A DNA stretch of 64,000 bases from the NCBI GenBank assembly GCA_963169045.1, contig CAUJDF010000056.1:1-64000 (forward strand), given 5' to 3'. The DNA comes from Myxococcota bacterium. GTDB lineage: Bacteria > Myxococcota_A > Bradymonadia > UBA7976 > UBA1532. Positions 198-55,907 of the stretch are shown one piece after another. Numbering within the stretch: position 1 is the stretch's first letter; each line of letters begins with the position of its first letter. The notes under the pieces are model-generated. The model was not told where the DNA came from. It worked only from the letters and a program-made list of their open reading frames with translations, and made no database searches. The position numbers and the translations under genes are program-made.

Positions 198-2531
198 TCA
201 GTAGCAGGCGGCGGGGCCGGCGACGCGGCGTCGGCACGGCACGCCCGGCGGACAATCCGCCGCGTCGGCGCACGCCGGCGCGCAGCGGCGGTCGGCGGCG
301 GCGGGATCGCGGGCCGCGTCGACGCAGAAGGTGCCATCGGCGCAGTCCGCGTCGGCAGCGCACGCGCGGCGACAGTGGCCGTCGCAGCGCCCCGACGCGC
401 ACTCGCGCCCGGCGGCGCAGGGCGCGCCGTCCTCGAGCGCGCCGACCGGCAGGCACACGCCGAGCGCCGCGCCCGGCTCGACGGCCACGCAGGCCTCGCC
501 CGGTCCGCACCCGCCCGCCTCGGGCCGGCAAGGCGAAGCGCACCGCCCGCCGGCCAGGGGATCGACCGCCACGCAGGCCGCCGCGCGCGGGCCGCAGTCG
601 GCGACCGTCGCGCATTCCTCCCCGAGCGGCGCCGCCGCGGCGCACGTCCCCGCGCCCGACAGGCCCTCGGGCGCGCAGACCTCGCCGTCTCCGCACCCGT
701 CCGGCACCGCCGGATCGCACGTCGCGACGCAGAAGTCGCCTTCGCCCAGCGCCCGGCACGCCGCGCCGGGCGCACAGGCGCCGTCGGCGCACGGGGTCGC
801 GCAACGCCGCCCCGCGCACACGCCCGACGCGCACTCGCCGCCGCGGTCGCAGCGCTCGCCGGGGAGGCGCTCGCCCACCGGCGCGCACCAGCCGCCGACG
901 CACGCCGCCCCGGGCCCGCAGTCGCCGCAGCGCGACCGGCAGGCCCCCTCCGCGCACCGCCCCGACGCACACTCGCCCGCCCGCGCGCACGCACCGCCGT
1001 CCGCCACGGGCCCCGGTGCGTCGCAGTACGGCGCCGGCCCGTCGAAGCGGTTGCAGATCCGGCCCGGCCGGCAGTCGCCGTCGCCGGCGCAAGCGGGGTG
1101 GCATCGCTCGCCGGCGCAGACCGACGCCGGCGGACAGCCACCCTCGCACGACGGCAGGCAGCGGCCCGCCACGCACGAGAGGCCCTCGGCGCAGTCCTCG
1201 CCGGCGCACTCCGCCCAGCGCGGGCGCGGGGTGGGACTGCACAGCGCCGCGGTGTCGAAGTCGAGGCACAGCTGGTCGCCGGGGCAGACGCCGTCCGGGC
1301 AGGCGGCGAGGCAGCGCCCCTCCGCGCACCGCCCCGAGGCACAGTCCCGGTCGGCGCCGCACGCGCCCACGCCGTCGCCCCGCCAGAGGCAGACGCCGCC
1401 CGCGTCGGGGCGCCGGTCGCAGAAGGCCTCCGGCGCGCAGTCCCCGTCGCGTTCACACGCCGGGAAGCAGTACCGGCCGTCGACGAAGGCGGCGCAGCGG
1501 GTGCCGTCGGGGCACGTCCCGTCCGCGAAGCAGTCCGTCGAGCAGCGCCCTGCCGCGCAGAAGCCGGTCGAGCAGTCGCGCTGCTCGCGGCACGCGCCGC
1601 CGACCGGCGCCCCCCCCGCCGGGACGCAGAAGCCGCCGGCGAGGTCCGTGAGGCAGGCCGAACCCGCGGGACAGCGCGTCTCGGCGTCGCAGGGCGCGGC
1701 GCAGCCGCCGTTGGCGCAATGGCCGCTCGCGCACTCGGCGTCCGCGGCGCAGGCGGCCCCGGCGGCCGCCTCGCCGCGGGCCACGCACAGCCGGTCCCCG
1801 CCGACCACCGCGCAGCCGGCCCCCTCGCCGCAATCCGCCGCCCTGGCGCACCGCCGCTCGCAGAGCGCCAGCGCCTCGTAGACGACGCAGTCGCGGTCGT
1901 CGGCGCACGTCCCCTCGGGGCACGCGCTGGCGCACCGCCCGCCCCGGCACACGCCCGACAGGCAGTCGGCCCCGACCCCGCAGGGCGCCTCCGGGTCGCC
2001 GCCGCCCGCCGTGACGCACACCGCCTGCGTGTGCAGCGGCAGGCACACCTGGCCGGGCGGGCAGGCGCCCTCGGGCGCGCACGCGTCGAAGCAGCGCCCC
2101 TGGCACACCCAGCCCGCGCAGTCGGCGCGCTCCGCGCACGGCGCCCCCGCCCCACCCGGGCCCGGCGCCACGCAGAAGCCCCGTCCCGGCCCGAGGACGG
2201 CGCACAGCAGGCCGTCGCCGCAGTCGGCGGCCGCGGCGCACCGTCGCGAGCACCGGCCCTCGCCGCCGCGGACGACGCACATGGGCGCGTCGCCGCCGCA
2301 GTCCGCGTCGCCGGCGCAGGGTGGGCTGCACACGCCGTGGACACACGCCGAAGCGGCACACTCCCCGTCGGCCTCGCAGCGGGCCCCCGCCGGCCGCCCC
2401 GCGTCGGGCGCGTCGACCTCGGCGGCGTCGCCGGGCGCCGCGTCGGACACGGTGGGCGCGGGCCCGCCGGGGCCGCAGGCCGCCGCCGCGAACACGCCGA
2501 TCCAGCCTGAGAGGACGCGAAGTCGCCGCAC
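198..2531 (-). CDS. Cys-rich repeat lipoprotein
   Basis: About 777 residues. I start it at the GTG at 2531, because this gives a short basic N-terminus, a hydrophobic stretch and a lipobox ending FAAAAC, so the mature protein should be lipid-anchored at a membrane. The rest is about twenty repeats of roughly 35 residues with the pattern C-x-x-x-x-D-C-x-S-G-x-C-x-x-G-x-C-x-x-x-C, rich in Gly, Asp and Ala. Such arrays are common in myxobacterial surface proteins; no catalytic motif is visible. A longer reading frame to 2681 exists but its extra N-terminus is Arg-rich and hides the signal. It diverges from the kinase-like gene, so the 60-130 bp between them must hold both promoters. The function is unknown; an adhesive or structural envelope role is an inference. 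Confidence 0.85.
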   Translation of the reverse strand: MRRLRVLSGWIGVFAAAACGPGGPAPTVSDAAPGDAAEVDAPDAGRPAGARCEADGECAASACVHGVCSPPCAGDADCGGDAPMCVVRGGEGRCSRRCAAAADCGDGLLCAVLGPGRGFCVAPGPGGAGAPCAERADCAGWVCQGRCFDACAPEGACPPGQVCLPLHTQAVCVTAGGGDPEAPCGVGADCLSGVCRGGRCASACPEGTCADDRDCVVYEALALCERRCARAADCGEGAGCAVVGGDRLCVARGEAAAGAACAADAECASGHCANGGCAAPCDAETRCPAGSACLTDLAGGFCVPAGGAPVGGACREQRDCSTGFCAAGRCSTDCFADGTCPDGTRCAAFVDGRYCFPACERDGDCAPEAFCDRRPDAGGVCLWRGDGVGACGADRDCASGRCAEGRCLAACPDGVCPGDQLCLDFDTAALCSPTPRPRWAECAGEDCAEGLSCVAGRCLPSCEGGCPPASVCAGERCHPACAGDGDCRPGRICNRFDGPAPYCDAPGPVADGGACARAGECASGRCAEGACRSRCGDCGPGAACVGGWCAPVGERLPGERCDRGGECASGVCAGRRCATPCADGACAPGAACRALGEGDFCVATCDPAVPDGCGDGEVCAPEGLSGAGTCAAAAPLGEECATVADCGPRAAACVAVDPLAGGRCASPCRPEAGGCGPGEACVAVEPGAALGVCLPVGALEDGAPCAAGRECASGRCDGHCRRACAADADCADGTFCVDAARDPAAADRRCAPACADAADCPPGVPCRRRVAGPAACY

Positions 2532-2592
2532 CGCTTCGAGGTTCCCACCTCGAACGCGCCGGGACAACGGACAACGTGCGGCGGACCGCGCG

Positions 2593-5500
2593 ATGACGGC
2601 GCGTCGCCTCCGGGACGTCCGCGCGCTTGCCCCCGCGCGGCCGGCCATCCACAATCCCCTGGTGTCCCCCTCCCCCCGCATCGCGGAGCGCTACCGCCTC
2701 CTCGAGCGTGTCGGCACCGGCGGCGTCGGCATGCTGTGGGCGGCGCGCGACGAGCGCTCCGGTCTGCCGGTGGCCGTCCGCATCCTGACGCGAGGCCACG
2801 ACGACCCGGCGCGCGTCGCGCACTTCCGCGCCAGCGCCCGCGCCGCCGCTCGCCTCGAGCACCCGAACATCGCCCGCGTGCTCGACGAGGGCCACGACGA
2901 CGCCGGCCCCTTCATCGTCACCGAGTGGGTCGACGGCGATCCGCTCTCGGCCTGGCGCGGCGCCGCGCTGCCGTGGGGCTTCGTGCGCGCCGTGGCGCTC
3001 CAGCTGGTCGACGCGCTGGCCCACGTCCACGCCCGCGGCCTCGTCCACCTCGACCTGCGCCCGGGCAACGTGCTCGTGGAGCCGGGAGACGAAGGACCGC
3101 GCGTCCGCGTCGTCGAGGTCGGCTGCGCGCGCATCGATGACGGCTGGAGCGATCGGCCGAGCGACGCGCGGCAGACGCTCAAGCTGCTCGGATCGCTGCG
3201 CTACATGCCGCCCGAGACGATCGACTCGCCGCCCTGGCGCATCGGACCGTGGAGCGATCTTTACGCCGCCGGCCTGCTGATCTACGAGCTGCTCACGGGC
3301 GACATTCCACACCCGGCGGAGAGCGCGATCGCGCTGCTCATGCAGCGGGCCACGGCGCCCGCGCCGCCGCTGCCGGCGGGCGTCGGCGAGCCGCACCACG
3401 CGGCGCTGCGGCACCTGCTCGAGCGCCTGCTCGAGCGCCGCCCCGGAGACCGCCCCGGCACCGCCGCGCAGGTCCGGCGCACGCTCGAGAGCCTGCCCGG
3501 CGCGCCCGTCTGGGTGCCGCCGCGGCCCAAGCCGCGCTTCCGCCAGTCCGGCTTCGAGCTCGCCTGTGCCCGCGCCGCCGGCTTCCCCCTGCTGCCGCTC
3601 GCCCCGGGGCCGCTCGTCGGTCGCCGCGAGCCCGTCCACCGACTGCGCGCCGCCCTCCACGACGTCGTCGCCGGCCTGGGCAGCCGCCTGGTGGTGCTCG
3701 AGGGCCCGACCGGCGTCGGGAAGAGCCGCCTCGCCGACGAGGTGATGTTCGAGGCCGAGACGCAGGGCCTCGCGCGGGCCATCCGCGTGGTCTACGCCCC
3801 CGGTGCGCCGCCGGGCTCCGGCCTCGCCGGCGCCATCGAGGACCTGATGCGCGCCGGCGCCACCGACGTCGAGGGCGTCCGCGCCCGCGCCCGCGCCCTG
3901 CCGCTCCTGCTCGGCATCGAGCCCGACGGCCTCGACGTCGTCCTGCCGGCGATCCTGCGCCCGGAGCCCGCCGCCGGCGACGGCGACGACACCGGCGCCC
4001 CGCCGTCGCTCGTCGCCAATGCGTTCTTCGAGATGGTCCGACGGGCGGCGCGCAACGACGCCGTCGTGCTGGGCCTCGACGATCTGCACTGGGCGTCCGG
4101 CCCCGAAGGCGCGGACCTCGTGCGGCGCCTCCTGGCCGAACCCGGGCTGTCCGTCCTGCTCGTCGCCACCGTGGCCACTGACAGGCCGGGCGCCGCCACG
4201 TTGCGCGCCGCGCTCCTCGGCGAGACACGCGCGGAGTGGATCCCGCTCGCGCCGCTCGACGAGGAGGCCCTGCGGACATACGTGCGCCGCCGCCTGGGCC
4301 TCGCCCCCGACGACGAGGTGCGCGTCGTGCGGGCCGCCGGGGCCCACCCCATCCTGCTCCGCGGCATCGCCGACCTGCTGCTGGCCGGCGGCCTCGTCGC
4401 CACCGAGGCCGGCCTGCGCCTCGCCCCCGGCACGCTTTTGCCCGAGGACCTGCGCGAGCTCTTCGGCCGCGCCGCGGCGCGCCTGCCGTCGCGCGGACCC
4501 GACACGCTCGTCCCCGACGTGGTGCACGGCCTCGCCCACGCGCGCCTGCCGCTCGGACCGCGCGTCGTCGCCGCCCTCGCCGCCCTGGAGCCCGGCCCCC
4601 CCTGGCTCCGGGCCCTCGCCGCCGCCGAGCGCGAGCGCCTCATGGTGCGCAGCGCGCTCGGCCGCTGGCGCTTCGTCCATCGCACCGTCGCCGACTGGCT
4701 GGCGCTGTCCGGGCGTGACGGCGCGCCGCGCTGGCACCGCCGCTGGATCGCCGCGCTCGAGCGCCTCGAGGGCGACGACCGCGGCCGGCTCGGTCTCGAA
4801 CGCGCGTGGCACCACGAGGCCCTCGAGGAACCCGCGGCCGCGGTGGACGCCCTCCTCGAGGCCGCCGGCCGCGGCGCCCTGCCCGACGACCGCACACGGC
4901 AGGCGGCGGAGCGCGCGGTGAAGCTCGCCGAGAACCTGCGGAACCCCGCGCTGCTGGCGCGGGCGCTCCGCGTCCGGGCCACGGTGCTCCGCCGCGTCGG
5001 TCGCGGCGACGCCGCGCGCTGCCTGCTCGACGGCGCCGAGGCCTGGCACGCGACCGGCGCCGAGCCCGGCGAGATCGCCCGGTGCCGACTGCTGAGCGCC
5101 TGGCTGACGCTCGACGCCGGCGACGTCGAGCTGGCCGTCGAGCGACTCGATCACGCCCGCGTCGCGTTCGAGCGCGCCCGCGACGGGGCCGGGCTGGCCT
5201 GGGTGGGGGTCGCCGCCGGCGCCGCCGCCCGCGCCCGCGGCCAGCACCGCGTCGCCCGGACCTACGGACGCCAGGCCGAGGAGGCCTTCGCCGCGCTCGG
5301 CGACGCCGCCGGCCTGCTGGCCGCCCGCCGCCTGCGCGCGGCGGCCGCGGACGACGCCGGCGACCTCGGGCCTGCCGAGCGGCGCCACGCCCGCCTCCAG
5401 GGCGCCGCCGACGCGGCCGGACGCGTGGTCGAGGCGGTCCGCCTCCGCCTGGTCCGCGCGCGCCTCGCCCTCGCGGGGCACCGGGCCCACGACGCGCTCG

Positions 5501-5790
5501 CCCTGCTCGACGAGGCGGCCCCCGTGGCCGAGGCCGCCGGGCTCGAAGACGCCCGCTGCTGGATCGAGGCGGTCCGGCCCGGCGTCCTCGCCGCCGCCGG
5601 CCGGCACGCCGAGGCGCGCGGCGCGCTCCGGTCGGCGCGCGCCCCCGCCCCTGCGCTCGCCGCGAGCGCCGCCGACACGGTGGCTGCCGCGGCGCGCCAT
5701 CCGACCGCCGCGCTCGACCCACCGCTGCGTCAGGCCCTCGCGGACTGGGCCGATCGCCTGCGCCGTGACGCGCTTCCGCCCGCGAACTGA
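2593..5790 (+). CDS. Ser/Thr pseudokinase-AAA-TPR-like protein
   Basis: About 1065 residues. An N-terminal protein-kinase fold (about 35-300) is followed by an AAA_16-type ATPase (Walker A GPTGVGKS near 371, Walker B-like VVLGLDDLHWA near 491) and a long Ala/Arg-rich helical TPR-like tail. This architecture resembles PknK-like signalling ATPases. The kinase core is degenerate: the VAIK lysine is Arg (AVRIL, residue 63), DFG reads EVG (175-177) and APE reads PPE, although the catalytic-loop Asp and Asn are kept in HLDLRPGN. It is therefore probably a pseudokinase or a very weak kinase, while the ATPase looks intact. The start is uncertain: ATG 2593 and GTG 2662 are both in frame and neither has a good Shine-Dalgarno. 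It diverges from the Cys-rich lipoprotein gene and is convergent with the DUF962 gene. Confidence 0.9.
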   Translation: MTARRLRDVRALAPARPAIHNPLVSPSPRIAERYRLLERVGTGGVGMLWAARDERSGLPVAVRILTRGHDDPARVAHFRASARAAARLEHPNIARVLDEGHDDAGPFIVTEWVDGDPLSAWRGAALPWGFVRAVALQLVDALAHVHARGLVHLDLRPGNVLVEPGDEGPRVRVVEVGCARIDDGWSDRPSDARQTLKLLGSLRYMPPETIDSPPWRIGPWSDLYAAGLLIYELLTGDIPHPAESAIALLMQRATAPAPPLPAGVGEPHHAALRHLLERLLERRPGDRPGTAAQVRRTLESLPGAPVWVPPRPKPRFRQSGFELACARAAGFPLLPLAPGPLVGRREPVHRLRAALHDVVAGLGSRLVVLEGPTGVGKSRLADEVMFEAETQGLARAIRVVYAPGAPPGSGLAGAIEDLMRAGATDVEGVRARARALPLLLGIEPDGLDVVLPAILRPEPAAGDGDDTGAPPSLVANAFFEMVRRAARNDAVVLGLDDLHWASGPEGADLVRRLLAEPGLSVLLVATVATDRPGAATLRAALLGETRAEWIPLAPLDEEALRTYVRRRLGLAPDDEVRVVRAAGAHPILLRGIADLLLAGGLVATEAGLRLAPGTLLPEDLRELFGRAAARLPSRGPDTLVPDVVHGLAHARLPLGPRVVAALAALEPGPPWLRALAAAERERLMVRSALGRWRFVHRTVADWLALSGRDGAPRWHRRWIAALERLEGDDRGRLGLERAWHHEALEEPAAAVDALLEAAGRGALPDDRTRQAAERAVKLAENLRNPALLARALRVRATVLRRVGRGDAARCLLDGAEAWHATGAEPGEIARCRLLSAWLTLDAGDVELAVERLDHARVAFERARDGAGLAWVGVAAGAAARARGQHRVARTYGRQAEEAFAALGDAAGLLAARRLRAAAADDAGDLGPAERRHARLQGAADAAGRVVEAVRLRLVRARLALAGHRAHDALALLDEAAPVAEAAGLEDARCWIEAVRPGVLAAAGRHAEARGALRSARAPAPALAASAADTVAAAARHPTAALDPPLRQALADWADRLRRDALPPAN

Positions 5791-10191: not shown

Positions 10192-11169
10192 ATGCGGAAC
10201 CCGTTCGACGATGGCTGGACGCTCGAGCGCCTCGGCGAGCTGGGGCCGCACGAGTTCGACTTCCAGGAGTTCAAGAGCACGCCCTTCCTGTGGGACGGCA
10301 AGGAGATCTGCAGCTCCTTCCACCACGATCTGTCGAAGCAGCTCTCCGCCTTCGCCAACGGCGCTGGCGGCCGCATCTTCCTCGGCGTCGACGACCGCGG
10401 GGTGCCCGACGAGGGCGTCCCGACGGAGCTGAAGCCCGGCGGCACCCGCTCGTGGCTCGAGGATGTCATCCCGCGCCTCGTCAGCCCCTCGCTGGCGCGC
10501 TTCAACGTGCACGAGGTGATCGGCAGGGACGGCGGTCGTTTCCGCACGCTGCCGGGCCGCGCCGTGTACGTCGTCGAGGTGCCCTCGAGCGAGGAGGCGC
10601 CGCACCAGGCCCTCGACAACCGCTACTACCTGCGCATCGCCGGCAAGTCACGGCCGATGGGACACGTGCACGTGCAGGACATCCTGCGCCGCACCCGTCA
10701 CCCGCACGTCGAGGTCAGCCGCCTCGGGCCGTACGGCGTCGCCGAACGCATCCTCACCGATCCGCGCGGCCCCAAGGTCTACATCGCCTTCCGTCTGTTC
10801 GTCGCCAACCGCGGCCGCACGATGGCGCATCACGTCGGCACCGAGATCCTGCTGCCGCGCCCGCTCGTCGGCCGCGAGGTGCGTCAGCGCATGCTCGAGT
10901 CGGGTGAGATCCAATACACCCAGACGCCGGGCACCATCGTGATGTTCCGCTACCATCCGACCCCTCTGTTTCCCGGCCAGGAGATCTTCAGCCAGCTCGT
11001 GTGGGTCGGCATCCACCGCTCGAACATCGACGTGGTGCGGTCCGGCGAGGCGGCGCTGTCGTGGAAGGTCTTCGCCGACGACGCGGCCGCGCGCATGGGA
11101 CGCCAGTCGCTGCGCCGCTACCAGGTCGTCGAGCGCGCGCTCAACTGGCTCCAGCGCCAGAAGGAGTGA
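10192..11169 (+). CDS. AlbA_2 (Schlafen-like) domain protein
   Basis: 325 residues; the ATG follows TAGGATG at a suitable distance. Residues about 20-165 match the AlbA_2 domain: an EFKSTPF strand, a helix ending LSAFANGAGGRIFLGVDDRG, then PGRAVYVVEVPSSEEAPHQ and NRYYLRIAGKSRPM. This domain occurs in bacterial regulators and in Schlafen proteins and is linked to nucleic-acid or nucleotide binding. The C-terminal half (about 170-325) is a beta-rich region I do not recognise, so this is not the usual form with a C-terminal winged helix. It is convergent with the RES toxin gene, with only 3 bp between the stop codons. A stress or defence role is possible but not shown. Confidence 0.82.
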   Translation: MRNPFDDGWTLERLGELGPHEFDFQEFKSTPFLWDGKEICSSFHHDLSKQLSAFANGAGGRIFLGVDDRGVPDEGVPTELKPGGTRSWLEDVIPRLVSPSLARFNVHEVIGRDGGRFRTLPGRAVYVVEVPSSEEAPHQALDNRYYLRIAGKSRPMGHVHVQDILRRTRHPHVEVSRLGPYGVAERILTDPRGPKVYIAFRLFVANRGRTMAHHVGTEILLPRPLVGREVRQRMLESGEIQYTQTPGTIVMFRYHPTPLFPGQEIFSQLVWVGIHRSNIDVVRSGEAALSWKVFADDAAARMGRQSLRRYQVVERALNWLQRQKE

Positions 11170-19237: not shown

Positions 19238-19963
19238 TCAGGTCCCCCGGACGAGGCGCGAGAAGTCCTTCAGCACGATGACCCCCTCGACCAGCGGCGG
19301 CGGGTTCGGCGCGTGCGCCGTCTCGAGCAGGATGCTCTCGGCCTCGGGCCAGCTTCGCTTGAAGAGGTTCGCGTTGCCGGGCTCGTTCTCGAACGCCGCC
19401 ACGACCTCGCCGAGCTCGCTGACGAACTCCACGACATCGCGCTTGAAGTCGAAGTCGGCCATCTCGAAGGCCGGCTTGAGGATGAGGGCGGTGTGCGCGA
19501 GGCCGACCGGGAAGCCGTGCGCCCGCAGGCTCGCCGCGGTGCCGACGAGCATGTTGGGGCTGTCGCGGCCCGACAGGTACGCCAGCGTGCCCCCCGTCTC
19601 GTAGAGCTCGAGGCAGAACTCGCGCGCGCCGGTCAGCGGGACGTCGTACTTGCAGTACTCGTCGGTGAAGAAGCGCTCGCGCCAGAACTTCACCGCCTCG
19701 CCGATCACCGCCGGATCGCGCTCGCCGACCAGGCCGAGCACCTCCTCGAGCAGGTACGGCAGGCCGGTCTCGCGCATCTCGGCGAGCTTGTCGCGCAGGC
19801 CCGGCCGGCCCGCGGACTCGGCGTATTCGATCAGGATCCGCCGTGTGCGCGGCCCGTTGTCGAACAGCGTGTGGTCGAGGTCGAGGACGGCGACGGGGTG
19901 CTTGCCCCGGGCATGCAGCGCGCCGACGCGGGCGATGATTCGGTCGAGGACGTGGGTCGTCAT
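19238..19963 (-). CDS. HAD-superfamily hydrolase
   Basis: 241 residues from the ATG at 19963. The HAD nucleophile motif VAVLDLDHTLFDNG carries Asp28 and Asp30, with the motif II strand LAYLSGRDSPN and a lysine in the middle region. The cap is helical and contains a Trp/Phe-rich segment (AVKFWRERFFTDEYCKYDV). HAD enzymes mostly remove phosphate from small molecules; the substrate cannot be read from the sequence. It lies 56 bp after the histidine kinase gene and just before the small membrane protein gene, so it may be part of the same transcript. Upstream extensions of the frame look non-coding. Confidence 0.85.
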   Translation of the reverse strand: MTTHVLDRIIARVGALHARGKHPVAVLDLDHTLFDNGPRTRRILIEYAESAGRPGLRDKLAEMRETGLPYLLEEVLGLVGERDPAVIGEAVKFWRERFFTDEYCKYDVPLTGAREFCLELYETGGTLAYLSGRDSPNMLVGTAASLRAHGFPVGLAHTALILKPAFEMADFDFKRDVVEFVSELGEVVAAFENEPGNANLFKRSWPEAESILLETAHAPNPPPLVEGVIVLKDFSRLVRGT

Positions 19964-21434: not shown

Positions 21435-22682
21435 TCAGATCACGCCCCGTCGCAGCGCCTCGGCGACGGCCTCGGCCTTCGTCGAGGCGTCGAGCTTGCG
21501 GTAGACGGTCTTCACGTAGGCCTGGACGGTGCCGAGCGCGATGCCGAGCGCGTCGGCCACGAGCTGGTAGGTGGCGCCGCGGGCCAGGAGCTCGACGACC
21601 TCGCGTTCCCGCGCGGTGAGCGCCGGCGCGTCGGGCGCCGCCGGCCGCGGGGCGAGGCGCGCCTCGGGCGGCACGTCGACGCGATCGCCGCGGCTCGTCG
21701 CGAGGGCCTGCCACAAAAACGCATCCAGATCGCGCAGTTGCAACGGCAGGGGCCGCGTCAGCAGCGCCTCGACGAGGCCCGCGGTCAGGCGCGGCTCGCC
21801 GCCGTCCGCGAAGCGCCCGGCCAGGTCGGCGTCGTCGGCGAGGGCGCGGCGCAGCAGGTCGGCGGCCAGCAGCGGGACGTCCTCGCGGCGCTCCTCGAGG
21901 GAGGGCAGCGTCACGACGTGGCGGAAGCGCGCCCGCAAGGCCGGCGCGATCGCGTCGACCTCGCCCGCGGTGCCGGCCACCAGCCGGCGGCCCTCCGGTG
22001 GGGCGGCATCGGGCGGCAACCCCGCGATCTCCTTCAGATACACGGTCGCCTCGCCGAGCGCGCCCGTGGCGCCGGAGAGGCGGTGGATGGCGCGCGCGGC
22101 GAACTCCTTGCCGACGCCGATGCCGCCGCGGAGCAGCACGTCCCCGCGGCGCGGCCCGACGAACGCGAGGCGGTCGCGCAGCGCCCAGGCCGCCGGGCTC
22201 TCGCCCACGAGGCCGTCGGCGTCGGCGCGCCCCCACGGAAAGTCGGCGGGCGCCCGCGCCGCCGGAAGCTCCGCGGGCCGCAGCACGCACACCAGCACGA
22301 GCTCGTCTTCGAACCGCAGCACGTCACCCGGAGCGACGACCGCGTCGCCGGCCGGCGCGCCGCGCACCGACAGGCCCAGCCGGCCGACGTTCTCGACGTG
22401 CAGGCGGCCGTCGCCGAGCGCGCGGACCTGCAGCTGCCGGCGCGAGACCCGCGGGGACGTCAGCGGGCCGCTCGCGGTGACGACGCCGGGGCGCTGGCGC
22501 ACGAGCGCGTCCCCCCCGCGGCCCAGGACGGCGGCGCCCTCGGACGGCACCGGCAGAACCTCGCCGACCCGCTCCGGTTCGCCCGCGGCGAGCGCCACGA
22601 CGAGGACCGGCCGCTCGGCCGCCTCGTTCCGGTCCGTCCGCCGCGGCGCGCCGTCGGCCGTCGTCGCGAGCAACTCGCTCAT
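21435..22682 (-). CDS. FHA-AAA-LuxR hybrid regulator
   Basis: 415 residues. An FHA domain (about 45-130; GR at 54-55 and SPRVSRRQ) would bind phosphothreonine. It is followed by a sigma54-activator-type AAA domain (about 155-320; Walker A GGIGVGKE), and a LuxR/GerE helix-turn-helix at 348-410 (LTAREREVVELLARGATYQLVADALGI). The AAA domain is degenerate: Walker B reads TVYLKEIAGLP with Lys for Asp, and no GAFTGA loop for sigma54 contact is visible. Standard activators of this kind end in a Fis-type helix, so this is an unusual fusion. It should therefore work as a sigma54-independent DNA-binding protein controlled by phosphothreonine. It is sandwiched between the Ser/Thr kinase and histidine kinase genes (15 and 5 bp). 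Confidence 0.85.
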   Translation of the reverse strand: MSELLATTADGAPRRTDRNEAAERPVLVVALAAGEPERVGEVLPVPSEGAAVLGRGGDALVRQRPGVVTASGPLTSPRVSRRQLQVRALGDGRLHVENVGRLGLSVRGAPAGDAVVAPGDVLRFEDELVLVCVLRPAELPAARAPADFPWGRADADGLVGESPAAWALRDRLAFVGPRRGDVLLRGGIGVGKEFAARAIHRLSGATGALGEATVYLKEIAGLPPDAAPPEGRRLVAGTAGEVDAIAPALRARFRHVVTLPSLEERREDVPLLAADLLRRALADDADLAGRFADGGEPRLTAGLVEALLTRPLPLQLRDLDAFLWQALATSRGDRVDVPPEARLAPRPAAPDAPALTAREREVVELLARGATYQLVADALGIALGTVQAYVKTVYRKLDASTKAEAVAEALRRGVI

Positions 22683-22697: not shown

Positions 22698-25956
<3,259 letters not shown>

Positions 25957-25966
25957 GGAGCTCCGC

Positions 25967-27394
25967 ATGTTGAAGACGAAGACCCCCGGCGACGTGCTCG
26001 CGTACGCCGAGGAGCACCGCTGCCGCCTGGTCGATCTGAAGTTCATGGACTTCGTCGGCCAATGGCAGCACTTCGCGGTGCCATTGCACGAGCTGACGGC
26101 CGACACCTTCGAAGAAGGCTTCGGCTTCGACGGCTCGTCGATCCGCGGATGGCAGCCGATCCATGCCAGCGACATGCTGGTGGTGCCCGATCCGGCGACC
26201 GCGGTCATCGATCCCTTCTGCAACACCGTCCCGACGCTGTCGCTCATCTGCAACATCGTCGACCCGGTGACCCACGAGGGCTACAGCCGCGACCCGCGGC
26301 ACATCGCGAAGAAGGCCGAGGCGTACCTGAAGCGCACCGGCATCGCCGACGTGGCGTACTTCGGGCCCGAGGCCGAGTTCTTCATCTTCGACGACGTGCG
26401 CTTCGACCTGACGCCGAACGCGTCGTTCTACGCCGTCGACAGCGACGAAGGCATCTGGAACTCGGGGCGCGGCGACCGACCCAACCTGGGACACCGGCCG
26501 CGGCACAAAGAGGGCTACTTCCCGGTGTCTCCCGTCGACCAGCTCGTCGACCTGCGCCACGTGATGGTCCAGACCCTCGAGAGCGTCGGCATCCAGGTGG
26601 AGCGCGAGCACCACGAGGTCGCGACCGCCGGCCAGGCCGAGATCGACTTCCGGTACGGGCCGCTCGTCGACATGGGCGACCAGCTCATGTGGTTCAAGTA
26701 CATCATCAAGAACGTGGCGCGGCTGCACGGCAAGACGGTGACGTTCATGCCGAAGCCGCTCCACGGCGACAACGGCTCGGGCATGCACGTGCACCAGAGC
26801 CTCTGGCGCGACGGCAAGCCGCTGTTCGCCGGCGACGGCTATGGCGGTCTGTCGGAGATGGCGCTGCATTACATCGGCGGTCTGTTGAAGCACGCCCCGG
26901 CGCTGTGTGCCATCACCAACCCGACGACGAACAGCTACCGACGGCTGGTGCCGGGCTTCGAGGCGCCGGTGAACCTCGCGTACTCCTCGCGCAATCGCTC
27001 GGCGGCCATCCGCATCCCGATGTACCAGGCGAGCCCGAAGGCCAAGCGGCTCGAGTACCGCACGCCCGATCCGTCGTGCAACGGCTACCTGGCGTTCGCG
27101 GCGATGCTCATGGCCGGCCTCGACGGCATCGAGAACCGCATCGATCCCGGCGAGCCGCTCGACCGAGACATCTACGCGCTGAGCCCCGAGGAGCTGTCCG
27201 ACGTGCCTTCGGCGCCGGGCAGCCTCGAGGACGCGCTCAGGGCGCTGCGCGCCGACCACGCCTTCCTGCTGCGGGGCGACGTCTTCACCGAGGACGTGAT
27301 CGACACCTGGATCGAGTACAAGACCGAGAAGGAGCTGAACTTCGTGCGCACGCGCCCCGTGCCCGCCGAGTTCATGCTCTACTACGACGTCTGA
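25967..27394 (+). CDS. glnA: Glutamine synthetase, type I
   Basis: 475 residues, typical of GSI. The ATG follows GAGGAGC. Key motifs are [19 protein letters not shown], the [10 protein letters not shown] Glu/His active-site loop, [17 protein letters not shown] and the Arg-rich [10 protein letters not shown] Tyr sits at residue 403 in [11 protein letters not shown], at the place of the adenylylated Tyr of the enteric enzyme, so control by adenylylation through GlnE and P-II is likely. It makes glutamine from glutamate, ammonia and ATP in the cytoplasm. It sits between glnB and a lipoprotein gene in one transcription unit. No ntrB/ntrC genes are seen nearby. Confidence 0.98.
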
Positions 27395-50636: not shown

Positions 50637-53270
50637 ATGCCGCGCACCGCCCGCCCGACCGCGCTCGCGCTGGTGCTCGCCGCATGCGGCGCGCCGCCGC
50701 GACCCGCGCCGGTGCCCGAAGCGCCGGCGGTGGTCGTCGCCCCGCCCGACGGGCACGCGCGCCTCGGCACGGCAGCGATTCCGCGTCGCTATGTGCTCGA
50801 TTTGACGGTGGATCCGGCGCAGGCGCGCTTCCGGGGGACGGCGGCGATCGACGTGACGCTGGCTGCGCCGTCCGATCGGATCGTCCTGCACGGCGGCGAC
50901 TTCCGGTTCGAGCGGGCGGTCGCCCGCGCCGGCGGCGAGGAGCACGCCGCCACGCCGGAGCCGGGCCCGAACGGCGGCCTGGCCCTGCGCTTCGCGCGCC
51001 CGCTGCCGGCCGGCGAGGCGACGCTGGACTTCGCGTGGACGGCGCCCCTGCCCGAGGTGCCCACCGGCCTGTACCGCGTGGAGGAGGGCGGCCACTGGTA
51101 CGCCTTCACCCAGTTCGAGCCGCTCGAGGCGCGCGACGTCTTCCCGTGCTTCGACCAGCCCGAGTTCAAGACGCCCTACGCGGTCACGCTGCGCGTGCCC
51201 GCCGGCCACCTGGCGCTGGCCAACGCGCCCGAGGCGAGCCGCGCCCGCGAGGCCGGCCTCGAGGTGTTCACGTTCGCCGAGTCGAAGCCGCTCCCCACCT
51301 ACCTCGTCGCGTTCGCCGTCGGCCCGTTCGACCTCGTCGGCGAGGGCGACCGCCGCATCGTCGCCACGCGCGGCAAGGGCCGCCTCGCGACGTACATGCT
51401 CGGACGCACGCCGGTCATCCTCGACGCGCTCACCGCCTGGTTCGGCTCGCCCTACCCCTACGAGAAGCTCGACCAGGTGGCCGTCCCGAACTTCCGCGCC
51501 GGCGCGATGGAGAACGTCGGCCTCGTCACCTACCGCGAGACGCTGCTGCTGCTCGACCCGGACGAAGCGACCCCCGCCGACCGCCACGCCGGGCAGTCCG
51601 TCATGGCGCACGAGCTGGCGCACCAGTGGTTCGGCAACCTCGTCACGCCCGCCTGGTGGGACGACCTCTGGCTGAACGAGTCGTTCGCCACCTGGATGGC
51701 GTCGCGGACGATGCGCGGGATCTGGCCGGAGTACGGCGCCGCGCTCGACGCGGTGTCGAGCAAGGTCGGCGTGATGCACCTCGACGCGCAGAAGGACGCG
51801 CGGGCCGTCCGGCAGCCGATCCGCGACGGCGGCGACGTCTACAACGCGTTCGACGGCATCACGTACCGCAAGGGATCGGCCCTGCTCCACATGGTCGAGC
51901 ATTGGATCGGCCCCGAGGTCTTCCAGCGCGGCGTGCGGCGATACCTGGCCGAACACGCGCACGGCGTGGCGACGACCGACGACCTGCTGGGCGCGCTCGA
52001 CGCCGCGTCGGGCCGGCCGGTGGGCGCCACCCTCCGGCGCTTTCTCGAGCAGCCGGGCGTGCCGCTCGTGCAGGCGACGGTGGCCTGCGACGGGGCGGCG
52101 CGACTGACGCTGCGCCAGTCGCGCTACCGACCCGCCGGCTCCGGCGTCGCCGGCGGCGAGCCCTGGACGATCCCCGTCTGCGTGCGCACCGACGCCGGGC
52201 GATCGTGCTTCGTGCTCGACGCGCCCGAGAAGACGTTCCCGCTGGCGAAGTGCCCGCAGTGGCTGCACCCGAACGCCGACGAGGACGGCTACTACCGCTG
52301 GATCGTGGCGCCCGCCGCGCTGCGCGACCTGCTGACGACGCGCCGCGCGGCGCTGACGGCCCGCGAGAAGGCGGCGCTGCCCGACCACCTGCGCGCGCTG
52401 CTGATCGCCGAGGCCATCGACCTCGACACGTACGTCGACGGCCTCGAGGCGCTCGCCGCGGAGCCCGGGCGCCACGTGCTCGGCGGCGTGATCTCGGGCC
52501 TCGGCACGCTGAGCCGCACCGCCGTCGACGACGCGCAGCGGCCCGCGTTCGCGGCGCTCGCGCGGCGGCTGCTCGCGCCGCACCTCGCGCGCATCGGCCT
52601 CGAGCCGAAGGACGAAGAGTCGATCGACGACCGGCTCGCGCGGCCGATGCTCGTCGGCGCGCTGGCCGATCTCGGCGACGACGGGTCGCTGCGGGCGCAG
52701 GCCCGCGAGATCGCTCGCAGGTTCGCCGACGATCCCGAGGCGGTGCCCTCGCTCGCGCTCGAGACATGGCTCGAGCTCGGCGCCTGGGACGCCGACGCCG
52801 CGCTGTGGGCGCGCCTCCGCGCGTCGGTCGGCCGCGCCGCCACGCCCGACAAGCGCGCGGCGGCGATCACGGCGCTCGGCGCGGTCGCCGATCCCGCGCT
52901 GCTGCGGCGCGGCCTCGCGCTCGTCCTCGACGGCACGCTGCGCGCGCAGGACTGGCGCACGCTCGTCCGCGGCCTGCGCGACCGGCCCGACACCCGCGAG
53001 GCGGTCTGGGCGTGGTTCACCGAGCACTACGACGCGCTCGTCGAGCGGCTCGGCCGGGAGGCCGCGCCGCGCCTGCCGTCGCTGGCCGCCGGCTTCTGCA
53101 GCGCCGCCGACCGCGCGAAGGTCGCGGAATTCTTCGCCGATCCGAAGCGCGCGCCCGAGGGCACGGCCCGCAACCTCGGGCTCGCGCTCGAGTCGATCGA
53201 CCGTTGCATCCGGCTGCGCGAGCGCATCTCGGGGCCGCTGGCAACCCGCCTCGCGCGCCCGCATCACTGA
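50637..53270 (+). CDS. M1 aminopeptidase, lipoprotein form
   Basis: 877 residues. The ATG has a Shine-Dalgarno (AAGGAG), and the N-terminus is a lipoprotein signal (LALVLAAC). It carries FEPLEARDVFPCFDQPEFK, the exopeptidase GAMEN (AGAMENVG), and the zinc site His325-Glu326-x-x-His329 with Glu348 (HELAHQWFGN and WLNESF), spacing HEXXH-x18-E. The C-terminal half is the helical M1 domain. It should remove N-terminal residues from peptides outside the cytoplasm, likely in the periplasm. It is followed after 33 bp by a second M1 gene. Confidence 0.96.
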   Translation: MPRTARPTALALVLAACGAPPRPAPVPEAPAVVVAPPDGHARLGTAAIPRRYVLDLTVDPAQARFRGTAAIDVTLAAPSDRIVLHGGDFRFERAVARAGGEEHAATPEPGPNGGLALRFARPLPAGEATLDFAWTAPLPEVPTGLYRVEEGGHWYAFTQFEPLEARDVFPCFDQPEFKTPYAVTLRVPAGHLALANAPEASRAREAGLEVFTFAESKPLPTYLVAFAVGPFDLVGEGDRRIVATRGKGRLATYMLGRTPVILDALTAWFGSPYPYEKLDQVAVPNFRAGAMENVGLVTYRETLLLLDPDEATPADRHAGQSVMAHELAHQWFGNLVTPAWWDDLWLNESFATWMASRTMRGIWPEYGAALDAVSSKVGVMHLDAQKDARAVRQPIRDGGDVYNAFDGITYRKGSALLHMVEHWIGPEVFQRGVRRYLAEHAHGVATTDDLLGALDAASGRPVGATLRRFLEQPGVPLVQATVACDGAARLTLRQSRYRPAGSGVAGGEPWTIPVCVRTDAGRSCFVLDAPEKTFPLAKCPQWLHPNADEDGYYRWIVAPAALRDLLTTRRAALTAREKAALPDHLRALLIAEAIDLDTYVDGLEALAAEPGRHVLGGVISGLGTLSRTAVDDAQRPAFAALARRLLAPHLARIGLEPKDEESIDDRLARPMLVGALADLGDDGSLRAQAREIARRFADDPEAVPSLALETWLELGAWDADAALWARLRASVGRAATPDKRAAAITALGAVADPALLRRGLALVLDGTLRAQDWRTLVRGLRDRPDTREAVWAWFTEHYDALVERLGREAAPRLPSLAAGFCSAADRAKVAEFFADPKRAPEGTARNLGLALESIDRCIRLRERISGPLATRLARPHH

Positions 53271-53303
53271 TCCGGTCCCGGTTCGTTCGAGGGGAGGTTT
53301 CGC

Positions 53304-55907
<2,604 letters not shown>

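Follow-up and report, generated by a model that had tools for sequence, protein, structure and literature searches.

Between a gene for a transmembrane Ser/Thr kinase and a gene for a histidine kinase, a genome of the Myxococcota encodes a DNA-binding regulator that joins an FHA domain to a sigma54-type AAA+ part, which raises the question of which kinase the protein answers to and whether it acts through sigma54. FHA enhancer-binding proteins are known in myxobacteria, where they are treated as sigma54 activators. An earlier note on this DNA had proposed a signalling unit in which phosphothreonine and phosphohistidine inputs meet at one DNA-binding protein that does not use sigma54. The features that bear on this proposal are given below as positions in the window, the whole stretch of 64,000 nucleotides that was analysed; labels such as L057 denote the loci of relatives.

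19238..19963 (-): HAD-type hydrolase-like gene, also kept next to the histidine kinase orthologues at L057 and L059
20020..21429 (-): histidine kinase, with HAMP, HisKA and HATPase_c domains
21435..22682 (-): regulator gene, 415 aa, FHA, trimmed AAA+ and GerE, from the open reading frame and domain scans
21438..21623 (-): GerE/LuxR-type DNA-binding domain, residues 354-415, standing in for the Fis-type end of relatives
21657..22214 (-): trimmed sigma54-type AAA+ domain, residues 157-342, missing both the L1/GAFTGA segment and some 21 residues beyond Walker B
22014..22046 (-): degenerate Walker B TVYLKEIAGLP, residues 213-223, placed by alignment, with Lys217 for the subfamily Asp and Glu218 kept
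22104..22127 (-): Walker A GGIGVGKE, residues 186-193, kept, from alignments
22260..22613 (-): divergent FHA domain, residues 24-141, retaining G-R, S-R and the RQRPG signature of the subfamily
22659..22664 (-): Thr7-Thr8 in the N-terminal tail (MSELLATTADG), a candidate kinase site at the position of the subfamily Thr motif T[TLVI]
22698..25550 (-): Ser/Thr kinase of about 950 aa, with one membrane helix and a long C-terminal part giving weak TPR matches

The regulator is encoded by an open frame of 415 codons and a stop, on the strand and at the coordinates first noted. Its GC content by codon position (0.85/0.55/0.96) is even along the gene and matches the pattern of the neighbouring genes. 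An open frame of this length that carries the neighbours' pattern in all three of its parts indicates a real gene. The gene lies 15 bp after the Ser/Thr kinase gene and 5 bp before the histidine kinase gene, confirming the flanks described in the earlier note. At the C-terminus a GerE domain of intact sequence was matched at residues 354-407 (E 7.3e-12, above the Pfam cut-off) and no Fis-type helix-turn-helix was found there. The Pfam scan gave no Response_reg match, and hence no receiver domain, in the protein. The FHA domain on its own falls below the Pfam threshold (E 0.034); taken together, Pfam, an alignment to ZraR and an FHA profile of the subfamily bear out the make-up of FHA, sigma54-type AAA and LuxR-type end that had been read from the sequence. 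Structure prediction of the regulator alone gave a pLDDT of 39.7, too low for use, and a collection scan with the regulator as query matched only the GerE domain of a response regulator.

The AAA+ part has lost several of the residues expected of a working motor. The Sigma54_activat profile matches the protein only at residues 159-205, around Walker A (E 8.6e-4), and the ZraR match is split into 158-204 and 256-283, with a gap between the two. Walker B was placed by alignment to orthologues, in which 'ATVYLKEIAGLP' of the regulator stands against 'GGTLFLDEIGELP', a change of Asp to Lys with the Glu kept. This placement appears to be the weakest step, with a modest score and no other candidate segment; the middle AAA piece is 28 residues long, too short for a confident profile match, and shuffled sequences reach the score in 15 of 5000 trials. 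Neither profile nor alignment revealed an intact Walker B elsewhere in the regulator; the Asp to Lys change claimed earlier stands. Alignment with its closest relatives shows two deletions in the protein, one of about 41 residues that takes out L1 in the interval from Walker A to Walker B and one of about 21 residues beyond Walker B; together about 62 residues are gone from the AAA part. The GAFTGA loop, correctly described before as missing, is absent through deletion of the L1-bearing segment. If the ZraR alignment and what is generally known of the AAA fold are a guide, edge strand beta2, helix alpha2 and L1 would all fall within the missing segment. Sensor I reads VAGTA, having lost the Asn of AATN, and sensor II reads LQLRDL. 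Because Walker B, sensor I and the L1 segment have been lost, ATP hydrolysis and contact with sigma54 are both improbable for the regulator. Sigma54 itself is encoded in the same genome.

To place the regulator among its relatives we collected 126 proteins with the FHA and AAA core from searches of the family, class and phylum. Of 318 genomes searched in one class, roughly a quarter encode the subfamily; nearly all members combine an intact ATPase with a Fis-type end. The Walker B Asp-Glu is kept in 113 and the sensor I Thr-Asn in 111 of 118 full-length members. GAFTGA occurs in none of the 120 relatives with a readable L1; 118 of them have [YF]Pxx[GA] in the loop, usually as NYPNPG or NYPNAG. 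At L027 the alignment to ZraR is gapless at L1 and NYPNAG falls directly on GAFTGA. In the regulator this motif is absent too, its segment having been deleted. The absence of GAFTGA across a subfamily whose motor is mostly intact argues that contact with sigma54 was lost early and throughout the group, and that the regulator represents a later step. It also supports the earlier description of a DNA-binding protein that does not use sigma54 in the usual way. The same taxonomic family also has FHA regulators that retain GAFSGA or GAYTGA (L031 and L035), so the subfamily coexists with FHA regulators of the GAFTGA-bearing kind.

In a tree of 40 cores the regulator groups with L025, L026 and L027 (support 95/98), all three of which end in a Fis-type helix, and it scores 297 bits to a subfamily profile built without it; tree and profile both point to common descent of its FHA and AAA core with the subfamily. 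Its own genome also encodes an intact FHA-AAA-Fis paralogue (G000:C79). We found no name for the FHA-AAA+ subfamily in NCBIfam or through literature searches, and nothing on FHA together with GAFTGA in the literature searched, a body of work that did not take in the 2005 paper on FHA enhancer-binding proteins. At L029 (7014-7526, +) and L030 (2950-3567, -), from two genomes of the family, a small gene, globin-like by eye, lies directly upstream of the FHA-AAA-Fis gene.

The Ser/Thr kinase upstream of the regulator has intact kinase motifs. An orthologous kinase is found directly upstream of the sister regulator at L027 (51% over 997 aa) and likewise at L025, where the kinase is cut by the contig end and was counted as paired by its C-terminal part; the L026 regulator lies at a contig end. 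Among the 45 relatives with some upstream sequence a Ser/Thr kinase is the immediate 5' neighbour in 16; in seven of these it is encoded on the same strand and ends no more than about 160 bp before the regulator gene, and in nine it is divergent and starts within about 1 kb. With 125 kinase domains in the 9.0 Mb genome, roughly one per 72 kb, this frequency of pairing is far above chance. The pairing is also conserved, since the sister genes at L025 and L027, still Fis-ended, have the orthologous kinase upstream; judged from these loci, it is older than either the motor's loss or the exchange of the DNA-binding end. The proposed tie between the DNA-binding protein and a Ser/Thr kinase is thereby supported. 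Divergent from the kinase, with about 67 bp between the starts, are glnB and glnA (P-II protein and glutamine synthetase, 25618-27394, +). A role in nitrogen control through GlnB and GlnA was considered and dropped, as the loci of the relatives do not preserve this arrangement of genes.

Orthologues of the histidine kinase, with 57-65% identity, occur at other loci in eight genomes of the same family, and in none of these eight does one lie beside a relative of the regulator. The HAD-type neighbour is kept in two of the eight (L057 and L059). A large Ser/Thr kinase lies convergently near the histidine kinase orthologue at both of these loci, and its orthologue in the window is found at 2560-5631. 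This span falls in the window's second large Ser/Thr kinase gene (2476-5784, +; about 1100 aa, with an AAA_16 domain), whose 52% orthologue lies beside the histidine kinase orthologue in related genomes; an old neighbourhood of histidine kinase, HAD-type gene and kinase has thus been split in the window. From this comparison of loci the histidine kinase is probably outside the module, and its adjacency to the regulator is likely to be a lineage-specific rearrangement. Co-transcription of the two genes is possible. The phosphohistidine input proposed earlier is unsupported, given that the histidine kinase orthologues are unlinked to relatives of the regulator and that the regulator has no receiver. 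What does hold is the lack of a receiver-domain partner, as no receiver gene lies beside the histidine kinase in the window or in the relatives either. The locus warns against reading gene adjacency as a pathway, the histidine kinase being, on this reading, a neighbour by rearrangement. Elsewhere in the window there are two tandem M1-family aminopeptidase genes (50637-55904, +) and a Schlafen AlbA_2-type gene (10192-11166, +).

A second protein with the same order of parts was found in another class of the phylum. L102 (4710-6296, -) has an FHA domain, a degenerate AAA part and a LuxR-type end; its Walker A reads GPAGACKE, its Walker B LLLDD, and the sensor I Asn is absent. In the tree of 40 cores L102 groups with L100, apart from the regulator, and the two end swaps therefore look independent. 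The LuxR-type end has apparently arisen at least twice, and only with a broken motor; no surveyed relative with an intact AAA part has one. Using L102 as query gave no second case in its class, and among the relatives surveyed within the phylum no second species had the trimmed form of the regulator. GerE proteins were also sought in 13 genomes of the family, giving 76 domain matches of which a part was read, so that an FHA-GerE protein with a very divergent FHA domain may have been missed.

Other members have a damaged AAA part and keep the Fis end, namely L111, L154 and the pair L127 and L128; L129 is cut by a contig end. L127 (2473-3543, -) and L128 (2298-3380, -), from two complete genomes, consist of FHA, lid and Fis with nearly the whole AAA core gone. 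Their dN is 0.022 and dS 0.41, giving a dN/dS of 0.05, below the 0.11 of the intact pair L160 and L164 from the same two genomes, and this motor-less version is therefore under purifying selection, that is, maintained. L102 and L111, the two other damaged-AAA lineages in which neighbours were checked, have no adjacent Ser/Thr kinase, and at L102 there is none within about 6 kb upstream. The check suggested earlier, a search for the FHA-AAA-GerE order with its kinase in other genomes, gave a split outcome: kinase adjacency recurs in the sister genes, and the order recurs once, at L102, with no kinase next to it.

How might a kinase signal reach such a protein? A profile of the FHA region from 12 members matched 15 structures at E up to 1, and 14 of these are FHA domains, GarA coming first and aprataxin, Rv1747 and OdhI being among the others. 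The phosphate-binding G-R and S-R are invariant in the subfamily, and across its whole breadth the ligand residues of the Asn-Gly side have diverged. In front of the FHA domain, 25 of 29 readable tails have T[TLVI] within residues 2-20, where the composition of the same proteins predicts 4.5 (2000 draws, highest 11) and shuffles within the tails give 13.2 (highest 20). Thr makes up 13.7% of tail residues 2-20 in the subfamily, compared with 3.6% elsewhere. The tail of the regulator has TT, in ATTAD, and not the commoner T-L form. In one clade (L029, L030, L088, L092 and L110) a tighter motif, T-[LVI]-x4-6-LPW, is seen between the start codon and the FHA domain. In GarA and OdhI the N-terminal tail has ETTS, which PknG phosphorylates, and this kinase contains a TPR scaffold (PMC8546545). 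From these features we would infer, as the best account, a switch that runs from kinase to tail to FHA domain.

We consider it reasonably probable that the regulator is a sigma54-independent phosphothreonine switch under kinase control, derived from an unnamed FHA-AAA+-Fis subfamily that is paired with Ser/Thr kinases. The neighbouring transmembrane kinase would phosphorylate a Thr, either in the N-terminal tail of the regulator or on the kinase itself, and the FHA domain would bind this phosphothreonine. A resulting change of shape or dimer state could expose or pair the GerE domain, which would then act at ordinary (sigma70-type) promoters. The AAA+ part, presumably no longer a motor, may still bind nucleotide and could help to scaffold or oligomerise the protein. 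The histidine kinase gene would be next door through lineage-specific rearrangement.

It is possible to read the same gene as a decaying relic of an FHA-AAA+-Fis gene or as a chimera of the draft assembly, as it is a single sequence from one draft genome in 109 contigs and has lost some 62 residues, an intact Walker B and sensor I, and its original end. We think this unlikely. Against it stand an open 415-codon frame with even codon-position GC through three parts, at least two separate in-frame deletions, an intact GerE domain, and the promoter-side context and kinase still in place; furthermore, the same combination exists in another class at L102, and the motor-less proteins at L127 and L128 are under purifying selection. 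A different role would be for the regulator to mix into rings of intact FHA-AAA+ paralogues such as G000:C79, as an inhibitor or as a targeting subunit that brings a DNA specificity of its own. The protein retains Walker A and the C-terminal AAA region (lid), an intact FHA-AAA-Fis paralogue is at hand in the same genome, and hetero-oligomers of enhancer-binding proteins are reported in myxobacteria, going by the title of Volz 2012 (cited in PMC12288465). However, removal of beta2 and alpha2 from the AAA core, as predicted from the ZraR alignment, would probably disturb the ring contacts, and at L127 and L128 the core is dispensable altogether, which makes mixed rings quite improbable.

The two-kinase arrangement, in which the regulator would collect phosphothreonine input from the Ser/Thr kinase and phosphohistidine-linked input from the histidine kinase, seems very unlikely to us. 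It draws on the gene order and the 5 bp spacing, which suggest co-transcription, and on the lack of any receiver gene by the histidine kinase, here or in relatives. Yet the regulator has no receiver domain, eight genomes of the family keep the histidine kinase elsewhere without the regulator, two of them with the HAD-type neighbour, and the regulators at L025 and L027 lie beside the orthologous kinase with no histidine kinase adjoining.

The more interesting part of these results is less the regulator itself than the FHA-AAA+ subfamily, with its own L1 motif and its recurrent loss of the motor. Most members keep the ATPase and lose the part that touches sigma54, with a conserved motif of their own instead, which raises the question of what the ring acts on. 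Tentatively, though as a serious possibility, we suggest a large unnamed family of FHA-AAA+ proteins paired with Ser/Thr kinases, in which [YF]Pxx[GA] replaces GAFTGA, the ATPase ring would act on a target other than sigma54-RNA polymerase, and control would be by a phosphothreonine switch like that of GarA and OdhI. From this family motor-less regulators would keep arising, two of them, the present regulator and L102, with a new LuxR-type end. These two are natural experiments: each has a broken motor and a substituted DNA-binding end but retains its phosphothreonine sensor. L127 and L128 are another, in which purifying selection acts on proteins that have lost nearly all of the AAA core. Together these cases lead to a testable claim, that in this family transcription can be controlled by a kinase-FHA switch with no need for ATP hydrolysis.

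Among the closest known proteins are the FHA-domain enhancer-binding proteins of Myxococcus xanthus, reportedly described by Jelsbak, Givskov and Kaiser in PNAS in 2005. Like the regulator, they would have an FHA domain before a sigma54-type AAA+ part, with control by Ser/Thr kinases through phosphothreonine having been proposed; unlike them, the regulator has no L1 or GAFTGA and seemingly no working motor, and it carries GerE in place of a Fis-type end. NarL/FixJ-type receiver-GerE regulators share the GerE domain, and its nearest matches are of this kind, but they have a receiver where the regulator has an FHA domain and an AAA remnant. Caulobacter NtrC is an AAA+ regulator without GAFTGA that acts at sigma70-dependent promoters (PMC12421884). 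In being NtrC-like and lacking GAFTGA it resembles the subfamily (PMC12421884), but regulators of this type have kept their receiver and Fis-type end along with an intact AAA+ core, whereas the subfamily has FHA and [YF]Pxx[GA], and the regulator has lost L1. With GarA and OdhI, among the best structural matches of the subfamily FHA profile, there is a common layout of an N-terminal Thr motif followed by FHA. Their partner kinase PknG has a TPR scaffold (PMC8546545), and the kinase beside the regulator gives weak TPR matches. The targets of GarA and OdhI are metabolic enzymes, both lack any AAA or DNA-binding part, and their tail motif is ETTS where the regulator has ATTAD.
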